Below, in pieces: positions 3,223-39,806 of a DNA stretch of 64,000 nucleotides. The stretch comes from Zygnema cylindricum (Eukaryota; Streptophyta; Zygnematophyceae; Zygnematales; Zygnemataceae): positions 1 through 64,000 of the forward strand of contig JBBHKE010003135.1 in assembly GCA_037447655.1 (NCBI GenBank). The letters are read 5' to 3'. Numbering within the stretch: the first letter of the stretch is position 1; each line of letters begins with the position of its first letter. Made by a program: the position numbers and the translations under genes. The notes beneath the pieces are model-generated. The model saw nothing but the letters and a program-made list of their open reading frames with translations, ran no database searches and was not told the origin of the DNA.

Positions 3223-4620
3223 ATGCCCACTGATTGGGATAATCTTGACCACTCATACGGATCTACACGTAGTGGTAGAACTTTGCGTTCATCAAATTTT
3301 GATCAATCGAATTTATCAAATTTGGTTCCTTTGACGTTAAGTCCTTTAATCGAATCTAGAGCATCTTCTACTCGTTCAGATTTAACCACTGTCTCATCTT
3401 TGTCATCCATTCTTTCCACGCTACTTGTGGAAGAGGTAGATAATGAAAGGGAACTGATTCAGATTTTCTTTCTTTTTGGTCTCCGTTAGCACCGATTCAG
3501 GATTTGAATTCGACTAACTCGTCTCTTTTGATGGACTCCACATTGGAGGGTACTCATGGTAAACTTCAATTCTGCTTTTCTGGAATGAAATATACCATGA
3601 GTTTATCTCATTTTCGAATGCTATTCGACACTGAAATGCGAGATATAGCTTTTCGTTATCAAGATAGATTTGACATGCGTGTCGCTTTCTCCCTTTTTGA
3701 GCGTTATCTTCGCAAGTCCGCCCTTACCTTATATTCGCGCAAGTATGATGGCATATTTGCGATGACTGAATATTCTCCACAGTTTGTTGGTATGCTTGAG
3801 GCAATAGGTCAAGCAGAAATTCCTTATCAAACTGCAATTCTCGAGGGCTTAGATGCACTTGGCAATGTTCTTTACCCGGATGTGGCGGAGGTTCCCCACC
3901 AATATGCCATTGCAGCCCGAGCCGCCGTCCCGGCACGACCCAGGATAACTATTCCGTTACGAGACCCTCTCACCATAATATTTAATTTGTTGCAAGAGTA
4001 GTATCGCATGCAAAATCCTGACCAAGTTAAGAAATTAATGAATTTTGAGCGTAAACCAAGAGAAACTGCTCCCGCTTTACGAGCCCGCATGGAGACCTTG
4101 CGAGAAGTGTTACCTGATCTGATATCAGATGCCGAAGCTGTCTAGAAGTTTGTTGGACAGTTTCCTTTCCAGTCAAAGAAATTTATTCAAAGCCATCTTA
4201 CCCCAACATACTATCTCAGATTTACGTTCGACCAGGCAACTCAATACGCTGTAGAATACGAGATGCCAAATTGTTGGTGGGAGGCCTGCGATCAACCAAA
4301 AGCCCCTCAAAAAGAACCCAACTTTTTTCAATTCACCAATTCTTCGTAACTTGGGGCCAAATAATCGGCCACCAAGGGTCCCATCTATGGGAACCTCACC
4401 AAATCAACCATCCAATCGGATTTGTTTCCAATGTGGTAAGATCGAGCATGATGCTCGGATGTGCCCGGATAAATCTACGACGTGTACATACTGCAAACAG
4501 ACTGGCCACTTTGTGCATTGTTGTCACATCAAAAACCCTGAATTTTCATATCAAAATCAGATTCGAAATGGTGGCATACCGGCTAGATCTGCCAAAGTAG
4601 TCCAACCAATTAAAGAGTAA
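3223..4620 (+). pseudogene. gag: gag of element L with two CCHC zinc knuckles (broken)
   Basis: Gag-like polyprotein of a gypsy element, which would form the particle and bind genomic RNA. I take the Met at 3223 as likely start because the preceding codons look non-coding. The frame is interrupted near 3487, then continues 3504-4001, reads past a stop at 3999 and another at 4142, and resumes with the nucleocapsid part in the 4351-4620 ORF. That part shows CFQCGKIEHDARMC (the usual Gly before His is Glu) and CTYCKQTGHFVHCC, two CX2CX4HX4C knuckles. The part between is charged and Arg-rich, as expected of gag. No gag is made intact from this copy. Confidence 0.7.
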
Positions 4621-4672: not shown

Positions 4673-5910
4673 ATGCAAACTCAAATGGCCACTATGATCA
4701 AAGACCAGTTTGCAGCCCTTATGGCTCAAATGAAACCGCCAACTCACTTAACCGGTATGGCTCGTACAGTTGTCCACCTTCCCACGCTAGCTGGTCGAGT
4801 TTTACGAGATTCAACCATCCAAAAGTGGGCAACCACATTTGACAAGGGGACAGTCGTTCACAATCGCGAGGGTAAACAGTCTAGCACTCGCGTACCATTA
4901 TCATTTTCAAAAGAAACCGCAACCAATTTGCCCGAAACAGCTTCCACCATCACGGCTGAAGCACTCACTATTATGGACCGCTCTATTCAGGACAGCCATA
5001 GGGTTAAGGAAAGATTATGTATTTTGTCTACTATGATTTCTGATTCACCCAACCTAAAAACTACGCTCACATCCATCCCATTTGCAACATTACAGGCTTT
5101 ACAAATGAACTGTAATCTTGATGCTCTTAGGCCTATCTCTACCGACGAGCGCAGTTCACTTGACCCACACATTAGTTTCCTAGATAATGGGAATGGTGCA
5201 TTTTCAGTCAATGGTGTCATTCCATCATTACCACTTATGGACACCGGTGCAAAACCAATTATCTTGGAGTCATCTTTTGCACTGAAACTAGGTCTGACTG
5301 GTGATAAACTTCAGTCCACTTCCACACCTTTACTCACCTCAGCGGGAACAACCAAACCAGTTTGGGCATTACAAAAGATCCACTCTGTTTTCGGTTTCAC
5401 AATGGTACAGAATCTGATTTTGCAGAAGTTCGTGCTCACGCGTTGGTCACCAAATGTAGTGATTATGAGTGTTTAGTGGGGCAAGATGTGATTTTCAGAG
5501 TAGGAGGCGGCGTTGATATGTACGATCAGACTTTTTCCTACCGTCCTACCAATTATCCGGAAAAGAAAATATGTCTCCCTCTAATTTCAGCACGCCAACC
5601 CATACCCATTATGGCTCACGCAACCCAATCTGTACCTGCTTATTCCGCAAATTTGGTGGGATTTGAAATTTTTCATTCTCATTCCGCAAAGGAAATTCTG
5701 CCCGACAGTCCTTCTTTGCCTGAACTTTTCGATAATCCAGGTTTTATTATTGATTCTCGCGAGTTTTATCACATCTACAAACACACCCTTCAGATTCCTT
5801 TATTGCGGGTTCCCCCTCTTCCTCATATTTTTGTAGATCCTTTTGGATTTCTTCCTATTAATTGGAAACCAATTCAGGTCAAACCTCATCAAGATGGTCT
5901 AGTCAATTAA
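4673..5910 (+). pseudogene. pol: Aspartic protease region of element L (frameshifted)
   Basis: The first ORF (4673-5476) has a Gln/Met-rich start and reaches LMDTGAKP, whose DTGA at 5240-5251 is the retropepsin catalytic motif. Downstream hydrophobic and Gly residues fit a retropepsin-like fold. Between about 5362 and 5476 the reading shifts to a second frame (5362-5910) that carries the C-terminal part, about 180 codons with no obvious domain. That frame runs through stop TAA 5908-5910 directly into the methyltransferase-like motif I at 5911. Protease tail and methyltransferase were therefore probably one polyprotein in the ancestral element. Confidence 0.65.
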
Positions 5911-6922
5911 GACCTATTCGCAGGCATAGGTACCTCTCTACTCTCATGCCTTCGCAACGGATTACTTATCTAGCACTACTACTCAGTTGACACTGACCAT
6001 TTAGCTCGGAAAGCCTAAACACATCACTGTAATCTTTTACACGGACAATATCCACATCATTTCTCGAAATCTGCCTTTGCTCACATGCATTCAACATTAT
6101 ATCAAGATATTCGTTTGATAGGAAACCAACTTCTTCTCGATGTGGAACCAATCGATCTTCTCTTTGCCGATTGGGAGTGTCAGGGAATGTCACGAGCAGG
6201 CAAAGGTCTCGGCTTAGCTGATCTCCGCACCAAATTATTCTTTGAATTAATTTGTATCATGCATTTTTTGCAATCTTTCGATTGTCTATTGGGATACATT
6301 TTTGGAAAACGTGGCAGCCTATAACGATCCTCGACCTACAGTGTTAGTTGATTACAAGCGGATAGAAGTATTAATTGGTCCTCCTCTTATCATTGATGTC
6401 GCTCGTCACGGGTCCTTAGCTTATCGCGTTCGATCTAAATGGACCAACTTGATTGATATTGGATGCCTTACAGAAGGAAATATTTGTGTCAAACCTCCTT
6501 TTACAAATATTAAGACTGCACTTTTTCCTTTTCACAAAGTCCAAACCTGTTTGCAACCTGATCACCCACCAAATTACAACATTAACGTCTCAGGCCAACC
6601 AGTCAAAGTTCTCCCCACTCTAGTGTCTTATCCACAATCTCATGCTTTCTCTGGTGATGGGCCCGGCCTGCTCAGAAATAGTCATACAGGCGGCCTACAT
6701 GAACCTACAGCCACAGAACGGAAACACCTTATACATTTCCTTCCCAACACTACGGTTGCCCATGGTCTCACAAAACGACAGCTGTGCATCCTTTTAGGTC
6801 GTGTCATGGACCCTCAATCTCTCTCATTTGTCTTAGGCCTCGGATTTGTAGCGGGTCGTTACGCACAAACCCATCCGTCTCAACCAGCAAGGGGGGGGGG
6901 GGAATGCATCACCAATTTCTAA
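5911..6922 (+). pseudogene. Cytosine-5 DNA methyltransferase-like domain inside the gypsy polyprotein
   Basis: The motifs appear in the order of C5-methyltransferases: motif I DLFAGIGT (5911-5934, SAM loop); an acidic motif-II-like VDTDHL (about 5986-6003); motif IV DLLFADWECQGMSRAGKG (6154-6207) with the candidate catalytic Cys codon at 6178-6180; GLADLRTKLFFEL after it; motif VI ENV at 6305-6313; a motif-VIII-like IDV...YRVRSKWTNL; and a C-terminal stretch KRQLCILLGRVMDPQSLS resembling motif X/DNMT3-type ends. The Pro normally before the catalytic Cys is Glu here. Stops lie at 5971 and 6016, and one frameshift lies between about 6241 and 6305. It sits between protease and RT. Retrotransposons with cytosine methyltransferases are known from dinoflagellates and Klebsormidium. 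The gene assignment is firm by motif; activity and exact family are inference. Confidence 0.82.
6888..6904 (+). promoter_or_regulatory. Internal polypurine/poly-G tract (possible central PPT)
   Basis: AGCAA followed by twelve G and AA lies at the end of the methyltransferase reading frame, before the RT. It closely resembles the purine tract at 10281-10298 near the element's 3' end. It may be a central PPT, a slippage-prone site, or a relic of the recombination that brought in the methyltransferase. Confidence 0.35.
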
Positions 6923-7044: not shown

Positions 7045-8217
7045 ATGTCATGGTCCCTTCCGGCATATACTACTGCCCAATCTGCTCCCTCTAGTCATAT
7101 GTCAACACCTCCCCATTGGACTGCAGCCTTTCCTACTCGCAGCTGGCACCATTGGACAAACTGCTTACAGGAAACACCGGTTGTTTACTCATTAGGTCAG
7201 TCACTTATCGCGAATGAACAACTAGCTTTTGCAAAAGCCATGGAAGAAATGAGGATTAAATGTTCGGAAACTCCTAAGTGGAAATTTGGCTCAAATCTCT
7301 CTCAATCTGAACATGATCTACTGAACGAAGTGATTCTCCAGAATATCGAAGCTTTTGCTTTCTCTATGAATGATCTTGGTAGCCATACCACCTATAAAAT
7401 GTCTATAGACCTAGAAGACGATCGTACCATTTTCAAGCCAAAACACCGTTTATCCGAAACAGAATGGGAATTAGTGGACCAACGGTGCGCTAAGTTAGAG
7501 GAAGCTGGCCTCATTTATCGGTCGGTTTCTTCTTTTGCAGCACCCACTGTCATGCCCAGAAAAAAAGATGCCGAAGGAAACTTTACCGATCGCAGGATGT
7601 GCGGCGATTACCGTGAACTCAATGCTAGAACGATACAAGATCGACATCCAATGCCATTGGCCGAAGAAATATTTGATCATGTACGAGGCGCTAAATATTT
7701 CAGGATTCTCGATTTACGACAAGGATTTAACCAAATTGAAATAGAGGAGAAGGATAGGCCTAAAACCGCCTTTTGGGGTAGGGATGGTCGTTGGGAGTGG
7801 TATATCATGCCTTTTGGACTTAAGAACACCCCGGCAGTTTTTCAAAAAGTAATGGATTCACTTTTAGGTGGTTGCAAGTTTGCACGATGTTATATTGATG
7901 ATTTGATTATCGCCTCTGCCACAATTGAAGATCACGCAGCTCATATCAAATGGATCCTAACTGAACTGAAAAATGTCGAATTAAAATGTAATCCAACTAA
8001 ATGTACTTTCGGGTCCGTGGGTATGCCTTACCTTGGACATTTCATTTCCTCCGAGGGAGTCACACCACTTGAAGCGAAAACCGAGGCTATCAACAAATTG
8101 CCAACCCTTATTGATCTCACGAGTCTTCGAGCCTTCCTACGATTAGCCAATTATTATCGCAGGTTTGTTTCGAGTTTCAGCACTATCGCTTCACCATTGA
8201 ACGATTTGCTCAAGTAA
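7045..8217 (+). CDS. pol: Reverse transcriptase of element L (longest open pol segment)
   Basis: Open for 390 codons. It shows the gypsy RT series: a proximal region ending FKPKHRLSETEWELVDQ, MCGDYRELNART, motif A FRILDLRQGFNQI, IMPFGLKNTPAVFQKVM, the catalytic YIDDLI, then YLGHFIS and the connection LRAFLRLANYYRRFV. Both catalytic Asp positions of YIDD and the motif-A Asp are kept. The start Met is only the first in the open segment; in a live element this would be part of a polyprotein. It ends at a stop replacing the link to RNase H. This is the best preserved domain of L. Confidence 0.9.
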   Translation: MSWSLPAYTTAQSAPSSHMSTPPHWTAAFPTRSWHHWTNCLQETPVVYSLGQSLIANEQLAFAKAMEEMRIKCSETPKWKFGSNLSQSEHDLLNEVILQNIEAFAFSMNDLGSHTTYKMSIDLEDDRTIFKPKHRLSETEWELVDQRCAKLEEAGLIYRSVSSFAAPTVMPRKKDAEGNFTDRRMCGDYRELNARTIQDRHPMPLAEEIFDHVRGAKYFRILDLRQGFNQIEIEEKDRPKTAFWGRDGRWEWYIMPFGLKNTPAVFQKVMDSLLGGCKFARCYIDDLIIASATIEDHAAHIKWILTELKNVELKCNPTKCTFGSVGMPYLGHFISSEGVTPLEAKTEAINKLPTLIDLTSLRAFLRLANYYRRFVSSFSTIASPLNDLLK

Positions 8218-8265
8218 GAAGTTCTTTTCGTTTAGGGACCTGATCAGATTTCAGCGTTCCAAAAG

Positions 8266-8649
8266 TTGAAAGATGCCCTCTCTAGTTCTCCAATCTTCCG
8301 ACCTCCTAATCACAAATTACCTTTCTGCCTACAAACAGACTTCGGAAAGCCTGGCATTGCGGCCATCTTAACTCAGCGTGAACTAACAGGAGAAGAATAC
8401 GTGGTCTCTAACGCAAGCAGGAGTAATAATCCTGCGGAGTCAAATTACAGTAGTTATGAAGGAGAATGTCTAGCAGCAGTTTGGGGTATTGTACACTTTT
8501 GTCACTACCTTTACGGAAAACCGTTTACCCTTCTAATCGACCATCAGCCTTTACATTGGCTGATGACGAACGATAAACTGTCACGAAAATTAGCGCGATG
8601 GGCTTTAATTTTACAAGAATATGATGTGGAAATAATTCACCGTCCATGA
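8266..8649 (+). pseudogene. pol: RNase H of element L
   Basis: RNase H of gypsy type that would degrade RNA in RNA/DNA hybrids. Visible: FCLQTDFGKPGIAAIL (first catalytic Asp), YEGECLAAVWGIVHF (catalytic Glu), TLLIDHQPLHWL (Asp), and the usual end of the tether, EYDVEIIHRP. It is separated from RT by a stop at 8215-8217 and followed by stop TGA at 8647, where the linker to integrase should continue. Confidence 0.82.
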
Positions 8650-10064
8650 TTACTTAGTTTAAATGCAGACAGCATTTCCCGAAATCCTTTGCCAAGGACC
8701 ACAGATAATGGAGTTCGACAGGATTTAGATGACGACTTAGCTACTATCTCAACAAGGTTTTACATCACACATTCTTTAGCCTCGCTGCCCCACTCTCGTT
8801 CTACCCTGGATCCATGGTGAGACGGAGAACTAATTCTTTTCCTCTCCTCACAAACCTTCCGACCAGGCACTATATCCGAGGAGGAGGAACGACTAAAGAA
8901 AAGGGCTAAAAATTATCTTTGGTTAGGTGGCACGTTAGTTTGATTGTTAGCGGACAGTAGTCACAGACACGTGCCTCGCGTGACTGAACGCCTCTCGCTG
9001 ATTGAATAAATTCACTCTGAGCAGGGTCACTATGGGACCAAGCGCACCTTAAGCTTGCTGCTTGCACGCTATTGTTGGTCTAGGATGCAATCTGATGTCG
9101 CAGCGGTATTGCAAAAGTGTGCAATATGTGATCGTCTCCGTACCTTTTTTAGCAACCAGCAGACTACCCTCCAACTATAACCCATCAAGGGGTTATTTTA
9201 CCGCTCGTCGTGCGATCTAGCAAGCCCCTTCGCGATATCCCGGAGGGGGAAACAATATATAGTGATCATGATTGAAAATTTTAGCAAATGGGTTGAAGTA
9301 GTAGCGTAACCACACAAAACTGCTAAGCTCACAACCGCCGGTTTTAAAGAACATGTCCTTATGAGATACGACGCTCTAGCCGAAGTCCTCACATATCAAG
9401 GGACTGAATTTCGCGGAGAATTCCAAAAAATGCTAGATGACGCTCTCATAGACCATCGTCGAACAAGACGCGATCATCCCCAGGATGATGGATTGGCGGA
9501 ACGTGCAGTTCAGACCTTCAAGCGAGCATTACGCAAACATTGCTTGGAGAAACATATAACGGTGTGGGACGAGTCACTTGGCTATATTGCCATGGGGTAT
9601 TGAATGTCGGTATAGGCAAGTTTTCCTAATTTTCGGCCGTACTATGTCTTATTTGGGGGTCAACCCTTGCTGGGTAGGAATATCCAGAAAGTCGCAAGCT
9701 TTCCTCTTCCCTTACAATCTGACAAGGTTTTCTAGAAGAACTTACTAACAAGGCGCTGCTTTTTGCGTGAGAGATGCCCATGGCTTTTGACAACCTGCAG
9801 ATCGCCCAGCACAAAGATACTTTGCGCTTTGCCACTACACGCAGCGGCAGTTACCGGCCCCAGTACAAGCCTTACCGAGTGGGATATTATTTCTACTTAC
9901 GGCCCCAATCTTTCGATACCTTGGACACAGATATTTCACCTCATATTCTCCAAATAATCGAAGAATATACGAATTGCATGTTAGGACTTCAAGGAGCAAA
10001 TACTCGAACCTTGCGGGAGCATTCGAAGAACTGTGCTCCATGTTATTTACCGGATATGTTCTAG
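8650..10064 (+). pseudogene. pol: Integrase of element L (several stops; second catalytic Asp changed to Tyr)
   Basis: After a decayed linker (8650-8980) an HHCC zinc finger is readable: IHSEQGHYGTKRTL, then KCAICDRLR near 9111-9141. The core follows, with DLASPF near 9215, the open piece 9361-9603 and HPQDDGLAERAVQTFK holding the Glu. In the second catalytic block the expected Asp codon is TAT at 9394-9396 (TYQGTEF), so the DDE triad is broken. Stops interrupt before the core and at 9601. A C-terminal segment (9774-10064) has RVGYYFYLRP and ends NCAPCYLPDMF. That ending leads directly into the PHD-like domain. Confidence 0.78.
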
Positions 10065-10067
10065 GAC

Positions 10068-10301
10068 ATGGACCTTATGCGTATGCCTATCACGGAGGCT
10101 ATAGAATGCATACTTTGCAACCAAGCCGACGGAGAAACATCAATGCTTCTATGCGACCATTCCAACCAGGGATTTCACAGGGAGTGTTTCGTTCCTCCGT
10201 TAACAACATTCCCGACGGTCATTGGTTTTGTCACGGCTGCCGAGAAATACCTCTCGTATTGGCCAGCTCTTCGACAGGCTAAAGAGCTGGGGGGGGAATA
10301 A
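10068..10301 (+). pseudogene. PHD-finger-like zinc domain at the C-terminus of element L pol
   Basis: The ORF begins three codons after the integrase tail stop. It reads CILC (10107-10118), then SMLLCD, GFHRECFVPPL, a PHD signature (C-x2-C...C...H-x2-C). The last zinc pair, WFCHGC (about 10226-10243), is present but in the adjacent frame, so one frameshift separates it. The fourth ligand is Ser instead of Cys (CDHS). PHD fingers usually read histone H3 tails; in a retrotransposon this would fit targeting of integration, as chromodomains do in chromoviruses. The fold call is by pattern. Stop TAA at 10299 directly follows the G-run. Confidence 0.75.
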
Positions 10302-10499
10302 ACTGAGCCTCTTAGCTTCCTCTCTCACTCTACCTTTTCCTTTTCTTGTGATATGTTTATTTGTTGTTTGCTGCCTATACAAATTTTTGCTACCAATTCT
10401 TTGCTATGTCACAACCTTTTTTGCTGATTTCTTCATCCTTACCTTTTGCTGCTGATTGTGTTGCATATTTATCATTTCGTTTCTCACATACACGATAGC
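10281..10499 (+). promoter_or_regulatory. Polypurine tract and 3' untranslated region of element L
   Basis: AAAGAGCT plus eight G and AA (10281-10298) is a PPT candidate. About 200 bp follows that recurs before each L-type LTR unit (16061-16264, 17439-17642, 26284-26492). If the PPT abuts the LTR, the LTR starts near 10304 (TGAGCC). If the LTR starts at 10500, this is 3' UTR. The sequence does not settle it. Confidence 0.5.
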
Positions 10500-11601
10500 T
10501 ATCATGCTGCATCACATCGCCGCATTTTAATTAAATTTAATCACATTGTAACTGCATTTTTCTATATATTTGATCCTCATGTAAACGGTTCGTATAAACT
10601 AACGCCACACTAATTTGTATCTGGTATGTTTCAGTGGCGACAAGACCGTACATATTTTTGTTGACGCCGTGAAACACGCGGATAGATTGGATTCCGTACG
10701 TGAAGTCGTCAAGCAACGTGAAACGCGCGAACATTTTGAAGTTCGTACGTCTATTCGTTAGGCGCCGAAATTTACGCGAACAAGTCTAAATTTTGTATGT
10801 ACGATTGGCGAACTAAAGCGCCAACCTGGAAATATGTCAGGACCAACGCGAATTCGAACGCGCATCTACGGCCGCAGATGATGTAGACGAACGAACGATT
10901 ACGATTCGAACTGCGCACGGCGACGCGATTGGTCTATTTTAAGTCGTGGACCCTTGGAACTCTCATGCATTTACATGTAGCATAGGAAGGGTATTTATCC
11001 GTAGGCTGTACATTTTGTAACGTAAGGCATACGATTCTGGTCGCCTATTGGACAAAATCCAAACTAGGCGCAGACAACTATATAGAACGCATGTATTTGC
11101 AGTAGATTAGGGGCTCAGCTGTAGACTTCATACTTATCGAATTTTAGGATAATTCTGTGTTCACAATTTCAAGAGGACATGAATTCTCATTTTGGAAGAT
11201 TTGACCTAAAATTTGAGGATTTGTCTTGTGAAATTGTCAGGATAGCTTTAGTGACTATTTTTCTGGTCATTAAGCGTTTTGCTGCTTAGCTCTTACTTTC
11301 TTTCTCTGTATACCTGCCTTACAAATTAATCTACACGGTTCACAACGAGGCCTACCCTGTTTCATTTCACTTCTTCTCTTGTCCAATCAAGTGGATTGCT
11401 CCTCGGCCTTCTTTCTCAGGCTGTTGTTGAATCTTGGATTGTGATTGGACAGTTTTGGGTTTGCTTAGGTGGTTTACTGCGTCATAGTGGATTAGGGTTG
11501 GCTTCCCTCGTATGTTTTGTGTGTGACAAAATCTGGTTATCTCATATTTGCTCGCAGTTTGCTACATTTTCAGTTTGTGTGTTGGGATATTGAGTTAAAT
11601 T
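10500..11601 (+). repeat. 3' LTR of element L, cut by element A
   Basis: Direct repeat of 962-2131, beginning TATCATGCTGCATC. It ends at GAGTTAAAT (11592-11600), short of the CTTTATTTATTG continuation seen in other copies, because the A-type LTR begins at 11602. Same strand as the L coding region. Confidence 0.7.
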
Positions 11602-12515: not shown

Positions 12516-13235
12516 GGTTATGGGCCTGTTGTCAAGAATGTCTATCTTTTCCGGGGAAAAGTATGTTTACTTGGCGAATATGGTGGAGACACATTTTGAG
12601 AATGTCAATCTTTTGGATATATTGGATGGTTCGCTGGATGAATCTTATCCGTCATGGTCTAAGAAAAACACACACGCTCGTTCTAATCAGAAATTTGTAT
12701 ATCTGAGGACTTAGCTATGTCTCGGATAAAAATGATAAAAACAATTGATATCTGGAAATCCTTTAAAATTGATTATGAAAAGGCTAATGTCTAAGAAGAG
12801 CTTCTATTAACTGGAAAAATTTGGGACTATAAGTATACTGGCAGTACAATGGCTGAATATTCTAACAAATTTCACATTCTTGTAGATGCACATGCTTGTG
12901 CAGGTGGTGTGTTTCCTCCGTATCAACAAGCAACTTTGCTCATGAGGGGTCTCCCTCGTAGTATAAAAGGAGCATCAGACATGCTCAAACAAAAAGATAA
13001 AGCTAGCTGGACTTTACAGTTAGCCATCAATATTTTACTAGAGGAGGAAGCTACATCTTATATTCTCAATGTTGAGCAAGTAGAGGCTTTTAATTCAGAC
13101 TTTGGGAGGAAAGGTCAGTTTTATCAGCAACGTAATCAATTTACCCAGTTCAGAGAGTTTTATTAGGGTGGAAATAGACAATCCAACAATGCATGATTTT
13201 ATTGCAGTGAGAGAGGTCATGGATACGAATTCTGT
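12457..13235 (+). pseudogene. gag: gag of element A (starts in the LTR, broken)
   Basis: The start ATG at 12457 gives MSTSTTTAAPPP, matching the equivalent start visible on the minus strand in the inverted LTR. The first part stays open to 12714. After stops the gag core is open at 12849-13166 (PYQQATLLMRGLPRSIKG, typical of copia gag). A zinc knuckle CSERGHGYEFC is readable at 13203-13235 with its first Cys displaced by a frameshift. It would form the RNA-binding capsid protein in an intact element. Confidence 0.75.
12516..12526 (+). other. Primer-binding site of element A
   Basis: GGTTATGGGCC directly after the LTR end AACAACA. It is complementary to the anticodon region of plant initiator tRNA-Met, implying a half-tRNA primer. 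It is translated as part of gag. Confidence 0.75.
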
Positions 13236-13412
13236 CCTAAACTTAAACAAGCTAACGATACAGGTTTATACAGGCTGGGATGGCAACAAAGTCAATTTTT
13301 CAAAAGCTTCACGGGGCCTACACCTCGTGGAAATGCACTATTTTCAGCTTCTTCATCACTCCAAGACGAGACTCTGACATTTTTTGAAGAGGACGACACG
13401 GATCTATTCGCA

Positions 13413-14557
13413 ATGGCTGTAGCAATGGAGGGCGCAAACGACCCTGGATGGATAATGGATACAGGAGCGTCAGCCCACATGTGCTCAAACAACGCCATCT
13501 TCAAAAATCTGAAAGCAACGACGGAGAAAAATATTTATTATGCTTGTGGAATGAGTGTCCAGACTCGTGCTATGGGTGATGTGTCCTTGCTAGTTGATGT
13601 AGAAGGAAAAGCAATTGAAAGAACCCTTCACAATGTCTTATTTGTGTCTGACTTTCAAGAAAATCTGTTTTCTACGTCGTTGGTAGAGAGTAAAGGCTTT
13701 GAGGTTAATTTGAAAAATGGTCGGCAGGTTGTTAGGAAAAATGGCAAGGTTGCGGTTACAGGTACTAGAGATAGTAGCAAGATGTACCGCATGGATATGG
13801 CTAATACCAAGGAGAATGATGTTCTGTACTCCGGTGTTTTGCACTCAGATGAGTTGTGGCATAAAAGATTAGGCCATGTAAACTATTATAGTTTGAGGAA
13901 AATGGTCATTGCTGGAAAAATAGAAGGTGTATCAATCACAGATGAGCCGGTCAAAACTTGTGATGGTTGCGCTTTAGGTAAAATCCACAGATTGCCATTT
14001 CCTAAAGAGTCTGAGCATTGGTTAACGAAACTTTTAAAACAAATTCATTCGGATGTTTTTGGTCCTGCGAAGGTTCCATCTGCCGGGGGGATGAAATATA
14101 TGGTCACCTTCACAAATGATTTCTCCAGGTTTACAAAAGTTTACTTCATGAAGGAGAAGAGTGAAGTGTTTGGTCACTTCAAACACTATAAAACATGGGT
14201 TGAAAAACTTCATAACTCACCTATTTTGCAGCTCAGATCGGACAATGGTGGTGAATATATGTCGAAAGAATTTAAAACCTTTTTACTCGAGGAAGGTATT
14301 ATTCATCTGTTAACTGTTCTATATTCACCGCAACAAAATGGGGTGTCGGAAAGACTCAATAGAACTCTCACGGATAGCTCTAGGTCGATGCTTGCAGATA
14401 AAAATGTGGATCCGAAATTCTGGGTTGAGGCTCTAAATTGTGCAGTTTATATTAAAAATAGGATAACATCCAGATCGGTAGACACTACTCCTTACGAGAT
14501 CTGGACAGGTAGCAAACCAAATGTAAGCCATTTCAAAGTCTTTGGTAATCATTGCTT
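13413..14557 (+). pseudogene. pol: Protease and integrase of element A, truncated in integrase
   Basis: Open for about 380 codons. Order: protease WIMDTGASAHMC (DTGA catalytic motif), GAG-pre-integrase zinc region ELWHKRLGHVNY...CDGCALGKIHRLPF, integrase core with HSDVFGP, LRSDNGGEY and SPQQNGVSERLNRT, so all three DDE residues are present. The open frame continues to 14747, but from about 14558 it translates inverted PBS and LTR, giving a meaningless tail. RT and RNase H never follow. Confidence 0.88.
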
Positions 14558-14563
14558 TATCTT

Positions 14564-15470
14564 GGCCCATAACCTGTTGTTCTCAACCACCGCTGCAGGT
14601 GGAGGAGCAGCAGTAGTAGTAAAAGTAGACATGATACACTCTCAGAAGCTATCAAGAATCCTACCAAACAGTTGTTTTCAAGTTCTCACCAACTCTTACA
14701 AAAGCATCCAAAACTCAAAAACTATATTAGAATATAGAGTAGCATAAACACTGACAACTCCCAAAGTTTTAGCACAATTGACCCGACAACTCTCAAGATA
14801 TAATACTCAGAAGTTTCCCAAAAACTGTGTGCAGCTTTACTACTTAGAAGTCTGGATACATAAAAAAACTCTAAGTCCTAAGTCTTATAATTTCGGTGTT
14901 CAATCGCCGATACAAGTGTACGTGAGAGGTACGTCCAAAATCAACCCACCTACTGAGATCTACGTGTTCCTAATCGTGCCAACCCAATCTATCATCGTAC
15001 AGTCAATATTACTCAGAATCCATATTAAGTGATTGTACAAATACTTGTCGGCTAAGTCACTTGGGATACTCTTATGAATCTTGTCCGTTGACTTGATTCA
15101 TATCAATCGCAGCTGCGTTGTCTCGTATTGGATCACATTCACATCACCCGCGGCTGCGGTGTCCCGCACTGCATCATATCCTAGATAGCAGCAGCTGAGT
15201 TGTCTGTACGTATCATATCCAATGTAACCGCAGCTGCGTTTGTCCTGTTTGTGTCGCAGCTTCGCTGCTACGCTACTTTGTCTGCAGGGCAGCTCCGTTG
15301 CTGCGCTGCTCTGTTAGCATAGCACTTGCGCTGCTATGTATGCATAGTAGCTGCGTTGTCTTGTGCTTCACTCAAGTGATGACGCAAATCCTAATGAAAC
15401 TTACGCTACAAATTACTACCTTTTTGCCGTCACACTAATATACCGAGACTTAAAGCTTTCCAAATCAACA
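14564..15470 (-). repeat. Inverted LTR and PBS of the A family
   Basis: Reverse complement of the forward A LTR with many small differences. PBS complement GGCCCATAACC at 14564-14574, LTR 14575-15470 (896 bp) ending AATCAACA. The GAGCAGCGCAGCTGC repeat cluster lies around 15250-15365. Confidence 0.85.
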
Positions 15471-18248
15471 CATAGAATGCATGTATTTGCAGTAGGTTAG
15501 GTGCTCAATTCTAGACTTCATACTTAGCAAATTTTAGGAGAAATATGTGCTCACAATTTCAAGAGCACAGGAATACTCATTTTGGAAGATTTGACCTAAA
15601 TTTGGAGGATTTGTCTTTTGAAATTGTCAGGATAGTTTTAATGACTATTATTTTGGTCATTAAGCGTTCTGCTACTTAGATCTTACTTTCTTTATTTGTA
15701 AACGTGCCTTACAAATTAATCTACCCGGTTCAAAGTGAGGCCTAACCGGTTTCCTTTCACTTCTTCTCTCGTCCTATCAAGTGGATTGCTGCTCGGCCTT
15801 CTTTCTCAGGCTGTTGCTAAACCTTGGATTGTGATTGGACTGTTTTGGGTTTTCTTGGGTGGTTTACTAGGTAATAGTGGATTAGGGTTGGCTTCCCTCG
15901 TATGTTTTGTGTGTGACAAAATCTGGTTATCACAGATTTGCTCGCAGTTTGCTACATTTTCAGTTTGTGTGTTGTGATATTGAGTTAAATCTTTATTTAT
16001 TGATCTCCTGTAAGAAATATAAACTGACCAAAGAGCCTAGTGGCTATCCGTTGGCTAAATAATAAATTGAGTTTCCTAGTTTTCTCTCTCACTCTACCTT
16101 TTTCTTTTTTTTGTGATATGTTTATGTGTTGTTTACTGCCTATACAAATTTCTGCTACCATTTCTCTGCTATGTCACAACCTCTTTTGCTGATTTCTTCA
16201 TCCTTTCCTTTTGCAGTTGATTCTGTTGCATGTTTATCATTTCGTTTGTCACATGCACGACAGCTGTCATGCCGCATCGCGTCGCCGCATTTTAATTATA
16301 TTTAATCACATTCTAACTGCATTTTTCTATATATTTGATCCTCATGTAAACGGTTCGTATAAACTAACGCCACACTAATTTGTATTCTTGTATGTTTCGG
16401 TGGCGACAGAACCGTACATATCTTTGTTGACGCCGTGAAACCTGCGGACAGATTGGATTCCGTACGCGAAGTCGTCAGGCGACGTGAAACCCGCGAACAT
16501 TTTGAAGTTTGTTCGTCTATTCGTTAAGCGACGGAATTTACGCGAACAAGTCTAAATTTCGTATGTGCGATTGGCAAACTGAAGAGCCAACCTGAAAAAT
16601 ATGTCAAGACTTGCGCAAATTCGAACGCGCATCTACGGCCGCACATGATGTAGAAGAAAGAACGATTGCGATTTGAACTGCGCACGGCGACGTGATTGGT
16701 CCATTTTAAGTCGTGGACCCTTGGAGGTCTCACGCATTTACATGTAGCATTGGAAGGGTTTTTATCCGTATGCTGTAGATTTTGTAACGTAAGGAAGACG
16801 TTTTTGGTCGCCTATTGGACAGAATCCAAACTAGGCGCAGGCAACTATATAGAACGCATGTATTTGTAGTAGGTTAGGCGCTCAACTGTAGACTTCATAC
16901 TTAGCAAATTTTAGGAGAATTTTGTGCTCACAATTTTAAGAGAACAGGAATTCTCATTTTAGAAGATTTGACCTAAACTTTGATTATTTGTCTTGTGAAA
17001 TTTTTCAGGATAGTTTTAGTGACTATTTTTCAAGTCATTAAGCGTTCTGCTACTTAGCTCTTACTTTATTTCTTTGTAAACCTGCCTTACAAATTAATCT
17101 ACGCGGTTCACATCGAGGCCTAACCGGTTTCCCTCCAATTCTTCTCTCCTCTTATCAAGTGGATTGTTGCTAGGCCTTCTTTCTCAGGTTGTTGCTGAAC
17201 CTTGGATTGTGATTAGACAATTTTGAGTTTGCTAGGGTGGTTTACTGTGTGATAGTGGATTAGGGTTGGCTTCCCTCGTATGTTTTGTGTGTGACAAAAT
17301 CTGGTTATCACAGATTTGCTCGCAGTTTGCTACATTTTCAGTTTGTGTGTTGTGATATTGAGTTAAATCTTTATTTATTGATCTCCTGTAAGAAATATAA
17401 ACTGACCAAAGAGCCTAGTGGCTATCCGTTGGCTAAATAATAAATTGAGTTTCCTAGTTTTCTCTCTCACTCTACCTTTTTCTTTTTTTTGTGATATGTT
17501 TATGTGTTGTTTACTGCCTATACAAATTTCTGCTACCATTTCTCTGCTATGTCACAACCTCTTTTGCTGATTTCTTCATCCTTTCCTTTTGCAGTTGATT
17601 CTGTTGCATGTTTATCATTTCGTTTGTCACATGCACGACAGCTGTCATGCCGCATCGCGTCGCCGCATTTTAATTATATTTAATCACATTCTAACTGCAT
17701 TTTTCTATATATGTGATCCTCATGTAAACGGTTCATATAAAATAATGCCACACTAATTTGTATTCTTGTATGTTTCGGTGGCGACAGAACCGTACATATA
17801 TTTGTTGAGGCCGTGAAACCTGCGGACAGATTGGATTCCGTACGCAAAGTCGTCATGCGACATGAAACCGCAAACATTTTGAAGTTCGTACGTCTATTTG
17901 TCAGGCGCCGAAATTTACGCGAACATGTCTAAATTTCGTTTGTACGATTAGCGATCTGAAGTGCCAACCTGGAAATATGTGAGGACGAGCGTGAGTTCAA
18001 ACGCGCATCTATGGCCGCAGATGATGCAGACGAACGAACTATTGCGATTCGAATTGCGCACAGCAACGCAATTGGTCCATTTTAAATCGTGGACCCTTGG
18101 AGGTCTCACGCATTTACATGTAGCATAGGAAGGGTTTTTATCCGTAGGCTGTAGATTTTGTAACGTAAGGCAGATGATTCTGGTCGCCTATTGGGTAGAA
18201 TCCAAACTAGGCGCAGGCAATACATAGAACGCATGTAATTGCAGTAGG
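15471..18248 (+). repeat. Head-to-tail array of body-less L-type LTR units
   Basis: Unit a (partial) 15471-16060, linker 16061-16264, LTR unit b 16265-17438, linker 17439-17642, unit c 17643-18248 (continues at 25728). Period is 1378 bp. Each junction reads GGCTAAATAATAAA, joining the 5' leader of L straight to its 3' leader, so the whole coding body is missing. About 15905-16340 and 17283-17718 look almost identical, pointing to recent unequal crossing-over or gene conversion. No genes. Confidence 0.75.
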
Positions 18249-19370: not shown

Positions 19371-20229
19371 ATGCGAGAAAAGGTTTTGGGGGATAGTGAG
19401 TGGACGAGTGGGGCGTCCATCAAGTGTTTGAATACCTCCAAGATTTGGAGGAAGCAGATTCAGAAGGAAGGTAGATCCATCTCCAACGGAGGAGACAAAA
19501 GAAGGAGAGGTGGTGGACAAAGGAACGAAGAAGGAGACGAACACACCAATAGCAACTTGTTCAGCATTCATGTCATATATTCCAAGCAACGATGAAAATG
19601 ATACTGATACCTAGGACTTCAACAATATAGCGGCAAAGCACTTCATACTCCGCCATCTTACTCAAAGGCTTGCATGTCATCATTTGCAGGTAGAAAGGGC
19701 ATCCAATCTTTGGATGGCTCTCATAGAGATGTACCGAAACAGTACAATTCACCAACAAGAGTTGGCTTTTCAGAAAGTTAAGGAGTATGTATACAAAGGG
19801 GGGAAGATGTTGGATTTTTGCAATGAGCTTGCTACACTCTTCATGGAGCTAGAGAGTACGGGAAGAGATTTTAGTGAAATAGAAAAGGTTAACTATTTAC
19901 TGATGAAGTTACCTGATGAGTTCGAGAACATAATCAACCGTGTGCAGGAGTTGCTAGACTCAAGGTGGATATGGAACTCAGTGGTAAGGATGATTCTCGT
20001 TCAGGAGAATACGATTGAGATCCGAAGGGGAGGAAAGAGTGGGCAAGCCTTAGCAGCTGCGACTGGTTGGAAGAACAAGGATTTCCGAAGACCGTTCGGA
20101 AACTATGGGGGGAGGGAGCAAAAAAATCAGACCGACGAGTTTGGACCAAGGGCTCCCAAAGGTTTATGTCATATTTGTAAGAAACCGGGGCACTATATGG
20201 CGGAGTGCACTAAGCTAACCGAGCTTTAG
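19371..20229 (+). pseudogene. gag: gag of element B
   Basis: The N-terminal part is spread over two frames (19371-19595 and around 19600-19683). The main open part, 19684-20229, has the copia gag core (LWMALIEMYRNSTIHQQ, YKGGKMLDFCNELATLFMEL, LLMKLPDEFENII) and ends with the zinc knuckle CHICKKPGHYMAEC. A stop at 20227 separates it from the protease part, which is in the same direction and begins 20233. Equivalent gag parts recur in F, C, D, G and H. Confidence 0.85.
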
Positions 20230-20232
20230 TTA

Positions 20233-20784
20233 ATGGAGGGGCACAATGGTGGAACCCCGAGAGGAAAGAAAAAGGCCCTTGTGACACAGGTGCATGAGGC
20301 AAAATTTGAGGACGAGGACGATGAGCTCTTATTGGATGAGGAGTTGGAGGCGAAAAACGAGGTCAAGATTCCACGAAGGCAGAAATGTGATTTCGGTGGA
20401 TTGAAAGGTGAAGCAGGCTGGATTGTAGATTTTGGTGCCTCCATGCACATGTGTAAGGATAAACACCGGTTCACTAAGATAAGAAAGATTCCCACCATAG
20501 ACATAGAGTACGGGGATGGGAGGATAGTCACTACTACTCTAGTAGGATTGGTAGATCTCAAAGTGCTAGTAGATCGAAAGACATCTATAGTAACATTCTC
20601 CGATGTATTATTTATTTTGGAGCTGAACAAAAACCTCATCTCTACATCTGTATTACACGATAAGGGTTTTTTCACTAGCACTAAGGAAGGAGTCTTTACT
20701 GCTAGTTTTGAGGAGGTCTATTTCATTGCTGAGAAAGGTAGCCAACGGATGTTTAGGCTGATTTTAAGTAATGAAACGAAGTAA
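20233..20784 (+). pseudogene. pol: Protease region of element B with altered active site (DFGAS)
   Basis: Copia retropepsin region, open for 183 codons after an acidic linker (DEDDELLLDEELEAKNE). The catalytic motif reads IVDFGASMHMC: the Ser/Thr after Asp, needed for the DS/TG loop, is Phe, so activity is doubtful. Related copies here have DSGAS (D, G). The frame ends in a stop at 20782 just before the pre-integrase domain. Confidence 0.82.
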
Positions 20785-20811
20785 CGTTTTTATGCAGGTG
20801 TTCATATAATT

Positions 20812-21765
20812 ATGATGTGGCATAAGAGGCTTGGGCATGTGAATCTAGATAAGTTAAGAGAGATGAAAAAGATGGGAGTGGTGGAAGGGATTCAATTCAG
20901 TGAGAGTGATAATATAAGTGATTGTATTGGATGTGCACAAGATAAAACACACAGATTACCCTTTCCTAAAATAGCCATCTATAAAGGAGAAAAATTTCTA
21001 GATCTAGTACACATAGATATTTGGGGACCGGCTAGAGTGCCCTCACTAGGGGGGAAGATATTTATGATGACTATCACTGATGATTGGTCTCGGTATTCCC
21101 GAGTGTATTTTTTGAAAAACAAGTCCGAAGCTCAGGATTGTTTTAGACAATATAAAGCATGGAGCGAAAAACTCCATGAAACTTCAATCAAGAGAATAAG
21201 GAGTGACAATGGTGGAGAGTATACTTCTAACCAGTTTGAGGATTTTCTGAGGGAAGATGGGGTCCAACACCAAAAGACAGTTCCAGAAAGCCCGGAATAG
21301 AATGGGGTAGCTAAAAGGTTAAATATAACACTAAGTGATAGTGCTAGAAATATGTTGTCAGATAAGAAGATAGGAAAAAGGTTTTGGGCAGAAGCAATGA
21401 ACTGTGCTAATTACCTCAAAAATAGAGTTCTTCAAACACCTTATGAGAGATGGACAGGCCGGAAACCAGACATATCTCACTTAAAGGTTTTTGGCAGTCA
21501 AGTATTCAGTCTAGATATAGATCGGTTTAATTGGAAGCTAGATCCTAAAGGAAAACCGGGATACTTATTAGGATATGATGAGGATGTTAAAGGATATAGA
21601 GTTTATGATCTAAAAAGGGAAGATATAATCTTAGTAAAGCATCTAGTAGTTATGGATGAAGGAAAGTTTGTGGATCCCTTCAAATATACAAAGTCAGTAA
21701 AAATCAGATTTGAGTTAGAAAATTCCGATGACTTTGAGCTTCCTAACTATCCAGGTTTTAGATAA
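20812..21765 (+). pseudogene. pol: Integrase of element B, catalytic Glu replaced by Lys
   Basis: Pre-integrase zinc region WHKRLGHVN...CIGCAQDKTHRLPF, then core blocks HIDIWGPA and IRSDNGGEY. A stop at 21298 is followed by NGVAKRLN, where family members have NGVAERLN, so the DDE Glu is Lys. The second open part, 21352-21765, holds the integrase C-terminus (FWAEAMNCANYLKNRV, TPYERWTGRKPDISHLKVFGS, GYLLGYDEDVKGYRVYD). Confidence 0.86.
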
Positions 21766-23655: not shown

Positions 23656-25722
23656 GTCTAAAATAAAATGCACAAAAGGCAGTCTACCTCTAACTTCTCT
23701 CTTCAACTCCCACACTTGTTGCAGTCATTAAATGTTAGAGATGAAGCTAGAGCCATGGCTACCTAAGCTATCCTGAGATATACGGGTAGTGGATTAGTTG
23801 ATTTACTAAAAATTAAGCTGTCGGGTACAGGATTTGATCCTGGTACCTACCGGCCGTCAAAGCCGCCGGGAGCCGGTTGCTCTATCAATTTAGTCTATGA
23901 ATACTGTTAGAGTATATTGTGTTTGATAAATAGTTAAACATTACTACGCTGACAAATTCATTTAACGGAACTATTTACAGGATACATAGGTTCGGTTATG
24001 TAAATGTACGGATTAGGGTACGGACGAGAAACAAGTACCGCGCATTTGTTTCGATAGCGAAACGAATACTGCGCAGGTATTTATTACGGATTAATCTGCA
24101 TTTAATCGGACAGCCGGAATTGTCGTTCATAGCCATTTTCAGCCATGAATGTACCCTCGGAAGCACCACAGACTACCCCAAAACAGCCTCCTTTGATTCC
24201 ACTCAGAATTCTACATAATAACCAAACCCAGCTGAAACTACTCAACAAGAGAGTTCGTAGGCTACTTAGTATTTCCACAAATTTTCATATAACAATAGTT
24301 AACCGAATAATCACAACACTCAGTCAAAGTTGCAGAAAGACACCCTGCCAGAATTTTGATAAATATGATCAACTTCACAATGAAGCCCCAATCAAATCAG
24401 ACACACACTAGGTCTGCAAATTTGTCACAATATTGCCAATACAAATAGAAACTCACATGCAAAATTTCAGATAATTCTGCCAATAAAACCGTGAGCAATT
24501 CTCAGATGAAAATCCCAAAAAGGAGCAGAAACAGTTTCTGTCCAAAAAGTTCCTAAGTCTCAAAATGACTAAGTCCTACAAAATACACTACAGCTTACTA
24601 CTCACTGTACGGAGGCATACCAGCCGTACGTAATCAATCAGCTACCTCTCTTAATGTGAGTGTACCAACAGTCTACACAAATAATGAAAACACATGACAA
24701 AACTTTGTTGCATATTTATAAGCCTTACGAATTCTGTCATATGAATCTGGACCGTCCAAATTAAGTATCATGTGATGGACGCGATTTCGCGTCCCTCACC
24801 AAAATGTCCAAACTGATGCCGCCACCGTCCGTAGCTCCGGTGGTATCCAATTCACCAAATATCGGCTGCCGCATTATGTTTCGTACGGCCAGTTAATATT
24901 TCGAACATTAATCATCGTATCGCTTCGCGATCCACCGCACATTTCTTCGCGTCACTTGAAGTCCAATTCCGTACGTTCCATTATTCTTAGTACTTAGTAC
25001 GCAAGCTGCTATGACTGCGATGTGACCAGCGCAGCATGGCAGCACAATATCTTTTCCATACATGCTGCTATGGCTGGGATGTAACCATCGCAGCATAGCA
25101 ATGTGATACAGAGAGGACTAAAGGTTTCTGAAAACCAACAAGAATGAATGCAGAGATCGCGGAAGAGGATTTCGGCAGTTTTTGGTCTTCGCCACTTCGG
25201 ATGACACGTGGCTGAATGACATTGGATCGCGGCATCTCCGAGGATTAAGGGAGCAAATCCAGATATACCACGTGTTGACATTTAGGCCATGTCGTACAGT
25301 ATTCCTACAGAAAGTACACCGGCAGCTATACTTTTGTGTTAGGAAGTGTAATACAACTGGTTCCGTACATCAGTAGATAGAGTGTGTGAGAGAGATAGGA
25401 CTTAGAAAAATTGGTAGATAGGACCCTCTCTCCCAGAGAGCTTTAGTACAAAAGCTCAACTTTGACCCTCTATAACTTACTGCTCAGGGGAGCAAATTCA
25501 GAGATTCTTTTTGCTATAGACTCAAGGGAGTCTTCTTCAAATTCAGAGATTCTTTTTGCTATAGACTCAAGGGAGTCTTCTTTTCACAGGGTTGAAGGTG
25601 GTCAGAGTTTTTGTCTGCCAAGGTGGTAGTTATTAATGTTGAAACACAAAGGGGTACGGGATATCCTAAAGGCTTCTTGGAAGCTATCCATTCTGAGGAC
25701 CTATGGAGGTCTCAGAGTTTCA
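23622..25722 (+). repeat. 3' LTR of element B, enlarged by a nested solo LTR
   Basis: Matches 18249-19289 outside the inserted 24121-25140. It also carries a local tandem duplication of about 45 bp (around 25494-25582, unit CAAATTCAGAGATTCTTTTT...). The antisense tRNA-like module is at about 23820-23895. Ends GAGTTTCA at 25722. Confidence 0.88.
24121..25140 (-). mobile_element. Solo LTR nested in the 3' LTR of element B
   Basis: 1020 bp. On the + strand it begins TGTCGTTCATAGCC and ends AAAACCAACA, so on the minus strand it runs TGTTGGTTTTCAG...ACGACA. Flanks GGAAT (24116-24120) and AGAAT (25141-25145) are an imperfect 5-bp duplication. It shares the GCAGCATAG/CAGCTGC-type words with A-family LTRs. 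No internal domain accompanies it. The 88-codon ORF inside is not credible. Confidence 0.82.
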
Positions 25723-25727
25723 GTAGG

Positions 25728-26492
25728 TTAGGCGCTCAGCTATAGACTTCATAATTAGCTAATTTTAGGAGAATTTTGTGCTCACAATTTCAAGAGCACA
25801 GGAATTCTAATTTTGGAAGATTTGACCTAAACTTTGAGTATTTGTCTTGTGAAATTGTCAAGATAATTTTAGTGACTATTTTTCTGGTCATTAAGCGTTC
25901 TGCTACTTAGATCTTACTTTCTTTATTTGTAAACGTGCCTTACAAATTAATCTACACGGTTCCCACCGAGGCCTATCCGGTTTCCCTTCACTTTTTCTCT
26001 CGTCCTATCAAGTGGATTGTTGCTCGGCCTTCTTTCTCAGGCTGTTGCAAAACCTTAGATTGTGATTGGACTGTTTTGGGTTTGCTTGGTTGGTTTACTG
26101 CGTGATAGTGGATTAGGGTTGGCTTCCCTCGTATGTTTTGTGTGTGACTAAATCTTGTTATCTCAGATTTGCTCGCAGTTTGCTACATTTTCAGTTTGTG
26201 TGTTGTGATATTGAGTTAAATCTTTATTTATTGAACTCCTGTAAGGAATATAAACTGACCAAGGAGAGTAGTGGCTATCCGTTGGCTAAATAATAAACTG
26301 AGCCTCCTAGCTTCCTCTCTCACTCTACCTTTTCCTTTTCTTGTGATATGTTTATGTGTTGTTTGCTGCCTGTACAAATTTCTGCTACCAATTCTCTGTT
26401 ATGTCATGACATTTTTTGCTGATTTCTTCATCCTTTCCATTTGCAGCTGATTATGTTGCATGTTTATCATTTCGTTTGTCATATGTACGACA
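25728..26492 (+). repeat. Continuation of the L-type LTR array
   Basis: After the GTAGG duplication, LTR unit c resumes (TTAGGCGCTCAGC) and ends about 26283. A 3'-leader copy follows (AATAAACTGAGCCTCC) and stops at ...GTACGACA, just before the point where the next LTR would start. Element C sequence takes over there. Confidence 0.72.
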
Positions 26493-27206
26493 TGAACCCC
26501 AAACTTATGGTGAGGCGATGAATTGTCCTGAGAGGAACTGGTGGAAGATAACCATTAATGAGGAGATGGCTTCGATTATGGCAGTCGATACTTGGGAATT
26601 GGTGGACTGTCTCCCTGACAGGAAGCCAATCGGGTGTAAGTGAGTATTTTAATTGAAATCAACCCGGATGACACCATTGAGCGCTACGAGGCTTGGTTAG
26701 TTGCGAAAGGATTTACCCAAAAAGAGGGAATTGACTACGAGGAGACATTTGCCCCAGTCGTCAAGTTCCCTCCTGTCCGGATATTTCTCAGTTTGTCAAC
26801 ACCAGAAGACATGGAAGTACATCAAATGTGTATGAAGACAACCTTCCTATATGGAGAGGTGGAAGAGGAGATCTTTATGCGACAGCCTAAAGGAATTGTG
26901 GAGAAAGGGGAGGAGAGCAAGGTTTGCCGATTGATCAAATCTTTGTATGGGCTGAAACCTGCGCAGCGTAAATGGAATAAGAAGCTCGATGAGTTTCTTA
27001 CAGGTTTGGGATACATTCGGATTAGCTTAGATCACTCAATTTTTTTGTTTGGAGATGAGGAAGGAAATATATTTATTGCAATTTATGTTGATGACTTGCT
27101 TGTCTTAAGTAAATCTATGGATAAAATATATAAGTTGAAAATGGATCTAAAAGGTAGATATCAGATGAAGGATATGGGTGAAGCAAGGTGTGTTTTAGGA
27201 ATTTAG
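26493..27206 (+). pseudogene. pol: Reverse transcriptase fragment of element C
   Basis: The part 26500-26643 (INEEMASIMAVDTWELVDC, KPIGCK) is followed after a stop by 26640-27206 with GFTQKEGIDYEETFAPVVKFP, VHQMCMKTTFL, SLYGLKPAQRKWNKKLDEF and IYVDDLLVLSK. YVDD is intact, but the motif-A catalytic Asp (VHQMDIKT in relatives) is Cys. The region ends with a stop in MERD-like context. Confidence 0.82.
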
Positions 27207-35534: not shown

Positions 35535-36451
35535 ACAACCGACAACCTTCTTTATGGAATAGTTTGCATAAATTCATTTTCCAACTCATTATTGAAGATC
35601 AAGACTCCCTCTTCTGAGCTCCCCTCATTTCCCTTCTTTAAGTCCATTGGAATCATACAACTATATGCTTTATCCATTTGAAAATTTTCAAGCATATTTC
35701 CTATTGCTTTCTTTTGAGTTAGTCTAATTGTTTTCTTCTCTCTATCCCTCTCCATCTGAATTCCCAAAATATACTTTGATTCCTCATGTCTTTCATTTCA
35801 GATCTACTCTTTAGATCGTTTTTCAATCTATTAATTTTCTCCATTGACTTACTCAAAATAAACAAATCATCAAGATATATGGCAATGAAAATTATACCTT
35901 CCTCATCCTCAAATAGATAGATAGAATGAACCGAACTGATTCGGATATATCCCAAACTCGTGAAAAACTCGTCCAGCTTCTTGTTCCATTGGCCTGGAGC
36001 TTGCTTTAGTCTATAAAGAGACTTTATCAATCTGCACACCTTACTTTCTTCTCCTTTCTCCACAAATCCTTGTAGCTGTTGCATGAAGATCTCTTCTTCT
36101 AATTCTCCTTGTAAGAAAGCGGTTTTTATGTCCATCTGGTGCCCTTCTATGTCTTCGGCTACCGTTAGAATTAATAAAATTCGGACAGAGGGAAATCTAA
36201 CAACCGGAGCGAAGGTCTCCTCATAATCGATTCCCTTCTTCTGTGTGAACCCCTTTACAACTAATCTGGCCTTGTATCGCTCGATACTGTTATCCACATT
36301 GAGTTTCAACTTAAATACCCACTTGCATCCTATCAGCTTTTTGTCCGTAAGACAATTCACCAACTCCCATGTGTTTGCTTCTATAATGGAAGCCATCTCA
36401 TCATTAATGGTTGTCACGCATCTACTACGCTCCGAACTATTAATTGTTTCT
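35535..36451 (-). pseudogene. pol: Reverse transcriptase of element E
   Basis: The minus-strand ORF 36417-35719 (232 codons) is the longest copia RT piece here: EANTWELVNCLTDKKLIGCKW, GFTQKKGIDYEETFAPVVRFP, motif A GHQMDIKTAFLQGELEEEIFM, SLYRLKQAPGQWNKKLDEFF and IYLDDLFILSK (YLDD variant of YVDD). The connection follows in another frame at 35767-35552. Upstream RT sequence is lost at the F junction. Confidence 0.86.
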
Positions 36452-39427: not shown

Positions 39428-39806
39428 TGTTGAAATTAGTAGATATATAGGGTATTTTCTAGGTCTAAGTTTATCACCAAATAGGAAAAAAAAAGAGCAA
39501 ACAACCTGCCTCCACCTCCTCTCTCTAGCCCCCATACTTGTTGTAGTCACTGAAGGTTAGAGAGGGTGGTTGAGCCATTGCTGCCTTAGCTCCACAGGCA
39601 GGACTAAAGAGTGATATAAGTCACTCTCAACAAAAGATTGAGTCACGCAGGACTCGAACCTCCGAGCGGCAAAGCGAGGCGTAACCGTCAGCTCTAAGCG
39701 GTCTGTCGTAGAAGTTCGTTACAGTACATGGGGTAAGATTTTTATTAAATATGAACATTAGTTCGATTAACGGAACTACGACTAGTGAACATAGAGCCAT
39801 ATTAGA

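Follow-up and report, generated by a model that had tools for sequence, protein, structure and literature searches.

Cytosine-5 DNA methyltransferases (MTases) carried by gypsy, DIRS and LINE retrotransposons have been published, and when retrotransposon DNMTs from Symbiodinium were tested they proved able to methylate CGs de novo, as stated in the available part of PMC5890265; the available part of PMC12344493 likewise places some DNMT3 members in retrotransposons. In KnitGypsy-Dnmt3 from Klebsormidium nitens, as far as the same part of PMC5890265 describes it, a DNMT3-type MTase also lies inside the gypsy Pol frame, is intron-less and is under purifying selection. Compared by description, its repeats have a DIRS-like arrangement, whereas the element reported here has direct LTRs, and 'PHD' occurs 0 times in the main text on KnitGypsy-Dnmt3, whereas the present family has a PHD finger. 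SymbioDIRS-Dnmt3 and SymbioLINE-Dnmt likewise encode a C5-MTase, but are described in that part of PMC5890265 as dinoflagellate elements of the tyrosine-recombinase DIRS and LINE types. Chromatin-type domains are also found in CR1-like non-LTR elements, which belong to another element class and have a PHD domain, and in an arthropod retrotransposon family with a different domain, methyl-CpG-binding; the title of neither report names an MTase. No report of a PHD finger in gypsy elements was found among titles and abstracts of the open-licence literature; none in a gypsy polyprotein is described in the available parts of PMC5408684 and PMC3286476, the latter mentioning an insertion with a PHD gene nearby, outside the element. 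The same titles and abstracts also yielded no MTase elements of Marchantia, Closterium or other streptophytes beyond PMC5890265.

The element reported here lies in a 64 kb stretch of DNA, the whole of which was analysed (the window). MTase-bearing gypsy elements are known in kind; the PHD finger, the ECQ variant of motif IV and the wider spread are apparently new. The published idea is extended from one charophyte to two liverworts, Closterium and the chlorophyte Cymbomonas (among the proteins listed), as well as to a further green-lineage genome; a PHD finger is added to the same polyprotein as the MTase, and one genome offers natural PCQ and ECQ enzymes. Why a transposon carries the writer of a mark commonly used to silence transposons becomes directly testable. 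Our main reading, to which we assign a probability of about 0.6, is a Ty3/gypsy family with protease (PR), DNMT3-like C5-MTase, reverse transcriptase (RT), RNase H, integrase and a PHD finger in one pol, in which the MTase would mark the cDNA or the insertion site and the PHD finger would steer insertion.

The element in the window

The window is eukaryotic DNA rich in retrotransposons. The MTase-bearing element lies on the + strand, framed by direct LTRs at 964-2062 and 10297-11600, and its features are as follows, with identities to one natural copy in the same genome and to P0115, a database protein with RT and MTase.

964-2062, + strand: 5′ LTR, as far as it aligns with the 3′ LTR (1100 columns against 10502-11600, 91.9% identical)
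4423-4524, + strand: end of gag with two CCHC zinc knuckles, read by eye
5210-5538, + strand: aspartic protease (DTGA), frame-broken (72% and 71% to the natural copy)
5893-6303, + strand: C5-MTase N-half, motifs I-IV, frame 1, with stops at 5908, 5971 and 6016 (PF00145 E 1.6e-6; 39% to P0115 over 121 aa, E 2e-25; 72% to the natural copy)
6172-6183, + strand: motif IV, W-E-C-Q, with Glu at 6175-6177 where Pro is usual and the catalytic Cys at 6178-6180
6302-6844, + strand: C5-MTase C-half, motifs VI, VIII and X, frame 2 (32% to P0115 over 204 aa, E 7e-26; 71% to the natural copy)
7447-8061, + strand: reverse transcriptase (PF00078 E 1.5e-27; 85% to the natural copy)
8227-8631, + strand: RNase H (PF17917 E 2.2e-31; 89% to the natural copy)
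8974-9657, + strand: integrase, H2C2 and core (81% to the natural copy, which itself has Pfam H2C2 and rve matches)
10098-10246, + strand: C-terminal PHD finger of pol, in two pieces that lie in different frames (the first piece by itself gives PF00628 E 9.6e-7)
10297-11600, + strand: 3′ LTR, aligned with its 5′ counterpart and with further LTR copies of the window

The direct LTRs and the order PR-RT-RNase H-integrase (RVT_1, RT_RNaseH, H2C2, rve) identify the element as Ty3/gypsy, the protease in this order being recognized solely by DTGA and a weak profile match (PF13650, E 9.1e-4, 20.3 bits, under the cut-off of 24.3). Judged from other LTR copies, the 5′ LTR probably ends at about 2133, and a G-rich polypurine tract stands directly 5′ of the 3′ LTR. 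Further LTR copies of the element occur at 15472-18247 and 25718-26490, the former head to tail with the same junction, as a tandem LTR array without an internal region. Open copia pieces (gag, Pol_BBD, integrase, RVT_2) were found at 13197-14744, 19615-21297, 26640-27203, 35722-36459 (-), 38227-48331 and 58147-59040 (-). Scans of the 64 kb window for tRNAs and ncRNAs (ARAGORN; Rfam at gathering thresholds) were empty.

The preliminary description had placed a C5-MTase between the protease and the RT of a gypsy LTR element, and the PF00145 match, the LTR pair and the alignments to P0115 (E-values computed for a set of 120 proteins) bear this out. The motifs also stand in the order that it gave: DLFAGIGT (I) at 5911, WECQGMSRAGKG (IV) from 6172, then LENV (VI), YRVRSKWTNL (VIII) and the X-like ERKHLIHFLP...LLGRVMDP, the numbers being those to which we take these blocks to correspond. 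Its profile check came out positive for the N-half, which, translated with X at its two inner stops, scored 28.3 bits against a cut-off of 22; the C-half alone matched no Pfam family and found no homologue in a protein database search. The span then given, 5911 to 6922, does contain the MTase, but the domain extends from about 5893 to 6844, as delimited by the natural copy. Likewise, the MTase shares the frame of the protease, as had been stated, but TAA at 5908-5910 intervenes, followed by the two further stops and by a frame shift near 6302, the original frame returning around 6886, next to 12 consecutive G residues. The window MTase copy is a pseudogene, some of whose relatives are open, and the window holds a decayed old copy of the family. 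No relative appeared in scans of viral contig and genome contig collections.

Copies in the same genome and selection on the methyltransferase

The genome that holds the window comprises 352,776,454 bases in 2689 contigs. Its assembly contains no match to rbcL and at least 88 matches to LHC-type genes (150 of 160 candidates scored). Among the best 60 of 206 rows, one LHCII protein (L037) reached 413-460 bits against chlorophyll a-b chains that are mostly moss and seed-plant entries and no more than 402 bits against Chlamydomonas chains; rows of 9vfj and of long LHCI chains, one of which came first with 549 bits, were set aside in this comparison. The host is probably a streptophyte. The element is present in multiple copies in this genome. 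A PF00145 profile search gave at least 123 places (123 of 782 candidates scored), and a search with the C-half of the window gave at least 152 MTase places (150 of 1376 candidates scored), which, among the places listed and with the window itself excluded, are 59-87% identical to the window. The protease-side probe, the MTase and the RT occur together in 23 of 27 window-family rows, of which L009 is the window itself and L005 and L012 are one place. Both MTase halves are present in 35 of the 36 rows examined in detail (L026 and L035 also being one place), L007 having neither, and 12 of the 36 are open over the examined stretch, five of these belonging to a second lineage (L001, L002, L006, L008 and L036). 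Less decayed copies, for which the preliminary description proposed a search, are present in the same genome, with the MTase at the same place in the element; in one natural copy, the MTase (44.8 bits against PF00145), RT, RNase H, integrase and PHD finger lie within a single open stretch of 1906 aa.

The stops and frame changes of the window copy would suit a fragment of a host MTase gene that landed by chance in one old gypsy copy. Such an insertion is extremely improbable, being refuted by the in-frame copies and by the recurrence of this order across many copies and in proteins of other species.

A second MTase-gypsy lineage was observed in this genome (L001, L002, L003, L006, L008 and L036); it is PCQ-type and P0115-like, its MTase being 53-56% identical to P0115 in five rows. 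One copy, which provided the single long frame examined for this lineage, unites the same domain set in 1524 aa and ends with a PHD-like match under the Pfam cut-off (21.5 versus 24 bits).

Comparison of subfamilies shows purifying selection on the MTase, the protein being conserved although synonymous changes are almost saturated. In the C-half, L026 and L031 differ at 41 of 426 nonsynonymous and 104 of 141 synonymous sites, the RT of the same pair being tighter than the MTase (14 of 388 versus 94 of 107); the MTase dN/dS is 0.13 for L034 and L004, and in the second lineage it is 0.06-0.29 for the N-half and 0.12-0.30 for the C-half. Close pairs are looser, with median dN/dS of 0.42 for the MTase N-half (26 pairs), 0.49 for the C-half (19 pairs) and 0.63 for the RT (6 pairs). 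Over 3587 aligned bases, 6 substitutions separate L026 from L028, a near-identity that indicates recent movement or recent duplication. Because some copies in the same genome keep the enzyme readable, the MTase is probably useful to its element. L027, L028 and L029, however, have a broken frame in the MTase N-half, at nearly the same position in L027 and L028, although over the compared segments of the C-half (189 aa) and the RT (165 aa) they match an open copy without a difference. Possibly an element can do without the MTase in cis, or the breaks are artefacts of assembly.

With so many copies (at least 152 matches among 1376 first-look candidates), the MTase might instead act in trans on host silencing, for example through genome-wide methylation, and not on its own cDNA; a similar idea is argued for Symbiodinium in the available part of PMC5890265. 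The CpG o/e of the window is 0.70, however, which is not extreme, and K. nitens has such elements yet a plant-like methylome according to the same part of PMC5890265, so that action in trans seems decidedly unlikely. Counting against self-marking, the one LTR pair compared showed no excess of CpG decay (16 of 75 CpG sites versus 13 of 68 GpC controls), and so no footprint of heavy self-methylation.

Relatives, fold and motif IV

The RT search gave 337 relatives, the best 120 of which include proteins from Calypogeia (a liverwort), Closterium and Klebsormidium; in 10 of these 120, an MTase part lies N-terminal to the RT (union of four probes). The P0115 MTase as query gave 1531 matches, and the best 120 include proteins from Marchantia, Calypogeia, Closterium, Cymbomonas (Chlorophyta) and metagenomes, together with many unnamed proteins, and no Klebsormidium MTase. 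The retrotransposon proteins in these 120 are followed by C5-MTases that are mostly unnamed, one being named Bathyarchaeota archaeon. The relatives among the matches listed go beyond the two published host groups, in agreement with the earlier suggestion of a new one.

The MTase occupies two positions among the relatives, after the protease or between RNase H and integrase. In the first type, one Closterium protein joins gag, PR, MTase and RT, five proteins from Marchantia contain gag, PR and the MTase but no RT, and other relatives are PR-MTase or MTase-RT. The second type comprises Cymbomonas, a eukprot entry and others, no one protein spanning RNase H to integrase; the PHD finger follows the core in eight of the ten such proteins with an integrase-core match, and the remaining two, P0138 and P0152, end within or shortly past the integrase. 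Marchantia P0142, with RNase H and integrase pieces after the MTase, fits neither position cleanly. In the eight database proteins of the second type that have the finger, it is united with MTase and integrase.

In a phylogeny of the kind proposed in the preliminary description, the retrotransposon MTases form one group against ten other C5-MTases (100/100), in a tree that took in no full DNMT3 row, and the RNase H/integrase type falls within one group of 24 rows (97/94). In a tree that included the window row, this row has no firm placement and the longest end branch (1.54). P0137, P0163, P0167 and P0169 were left out before the trees were built. The RT tree leaves the relation of the two MTase positions unsettled, because just two MTase-after-RNase-H rows passed the length filter, both on long branches.

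The MTase is DNMT3-like in fold according to a structure model of P0122, a PCQ-type relative and not the ECQ-type protein of the window (mean pLDDT 76, 16 sequences). In a Foldseek search of the PDB with this model, all 50 listed rows are DNMT3 proteins or complexes, with target-normalised TM up to 0.82, and a viral library gave phage and giant-virus C5-MTases first, with weaker E-values. By phmmer, P0122 matches DNMT3A (9.7e-8), HhaI (1.3e-4) and DRM2 (0.028); for the P0115 piece, DNMT3A (2.8e-6) leads HhaI (1.8e-5) narrowly, and the joined MTase halves of the window found HhaI alone in the PDB, at E 0.17 or worse. The MTase fold is common to animal DNMT3A/B and the present family, but identity is about 20% over the model, DNMT3A/B are cellular genes and their alignments have PCN at motif IV. 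In animals, the DNMT3A/B MTase has an ADD reader attached to it.

Neither the PHD finger that ends pol nor the standing of ECQ for the usual PCQ is mentioned in the preliminary description. A test of the window MTase for the PCQ triad returned ECQ: motif IV reads WECQ in place of the usual PCQ, the Cys itself being kept. Decay of the window copy alone is ruled out as the source, since the exact pattern W-E-C-Q-G-M occurs 175 times in the genome (reversed pattern, 0), W-P-C-Q-G-M occurs 0 times and the window-family rows agree. Among 100 listed places, both GAA and GAG serve as the Glu codon. Motif IV is printed for 20 of 29 window-family rows (18 places), with Glu in all; of the other rows, seven have no printed motif IV and two gave a false match, one of these (L034) reading GWECQ. 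Among 49 relatives, 47 are readable at motif IV, 35 with Pro and 12 with Glu, so that the triad is not invariant in the family. At least eight Pro/Glu changes are needed on a family tree built without that residue, in which 16 of the 54 inner branches have weak support. This tree also lacks P0158, P0168, the row of the window and four of seven host rows (L031, L036, L002 and L006), and so contains no second-lineage row. Another tree gives a minimum of eight changes with the window row and seven without it. A text search of the open-licence literature for ECQ alongside PCQ found no paper with ECQ; fungal RID-like enzymes deviate in motif VI instead, with EQT or EET for ENV, according to the available part of PMC6709928.

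The motif IV Glu could have altered or abolished ordinary catalysis. Its presence in every window-family row with the motif printed, and its recurrence among relatives, would fit an enzyme that is dead or chemically changed and kept as a nucleic-acid-binding module, such as a cDNA chaperone or a sensor of host methylation. This is unlikely, however, as the relatives keep the Cys (47 of 47), the motif VI Glu (49 of 49) and the motif VIII Arg (48 of 49), and the second lineage of the same genome has PCQ in all six rows.

The PHD finger and the proposed working of the element

In our main reading, that of a self-marking gypsy family, the MTase would most likely be produced within pol, enter the particle and methylate cytosines, either of the new cDNA or of the insertion-site DNA, to the benefit of the element. 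The PHD finger at the integrase end would most likely dock on histone H3 tails and thereby steer insertion, much as chromodomains are supposed to do in chromoviruses. Chromoviruses also have a histone reader at the integrase C-terminus, but it is a chromodomain, not a PHD finger, and they lack an MTase.

A bolder and rather doubtful extension is that a widespread green-lineage gypsy clade forms a self-contained epigenetic device. Repeated PCQ/ECQ switches in its de novo MTase would then reflect convergence on another substrate or chemistry, such as action on an RNA:DNA hybrid or on single-stranded cDNA within the particle, and the integrase-borne PHD finger would read H3K4-unmethylated chromatin, so that new copies would arrive pre-marked in silent chromatin.

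The first PHD piece of the window scores 29.2 bits against PF00628 (cut-off 24), and the natural copy has a full C4HC3 finger (E 5.2e-10, 39.6 bits). The nearest solved sequences are PHF12, BAZ2B, a KDM5-type lid, WSTF, KDM5B and PHF21A; several fingers of the PHF12, BAZ2B, KDM5, WSTF and PHF21A types read unmethylated H3K4. Behind the PHD finger of P0133, an MTase-integrase protein, residues 894-948 give a weak Tudor-like match (PF21743, PTM/DIR17 type) of 19.6 bits, under the cut-off of 27.2.
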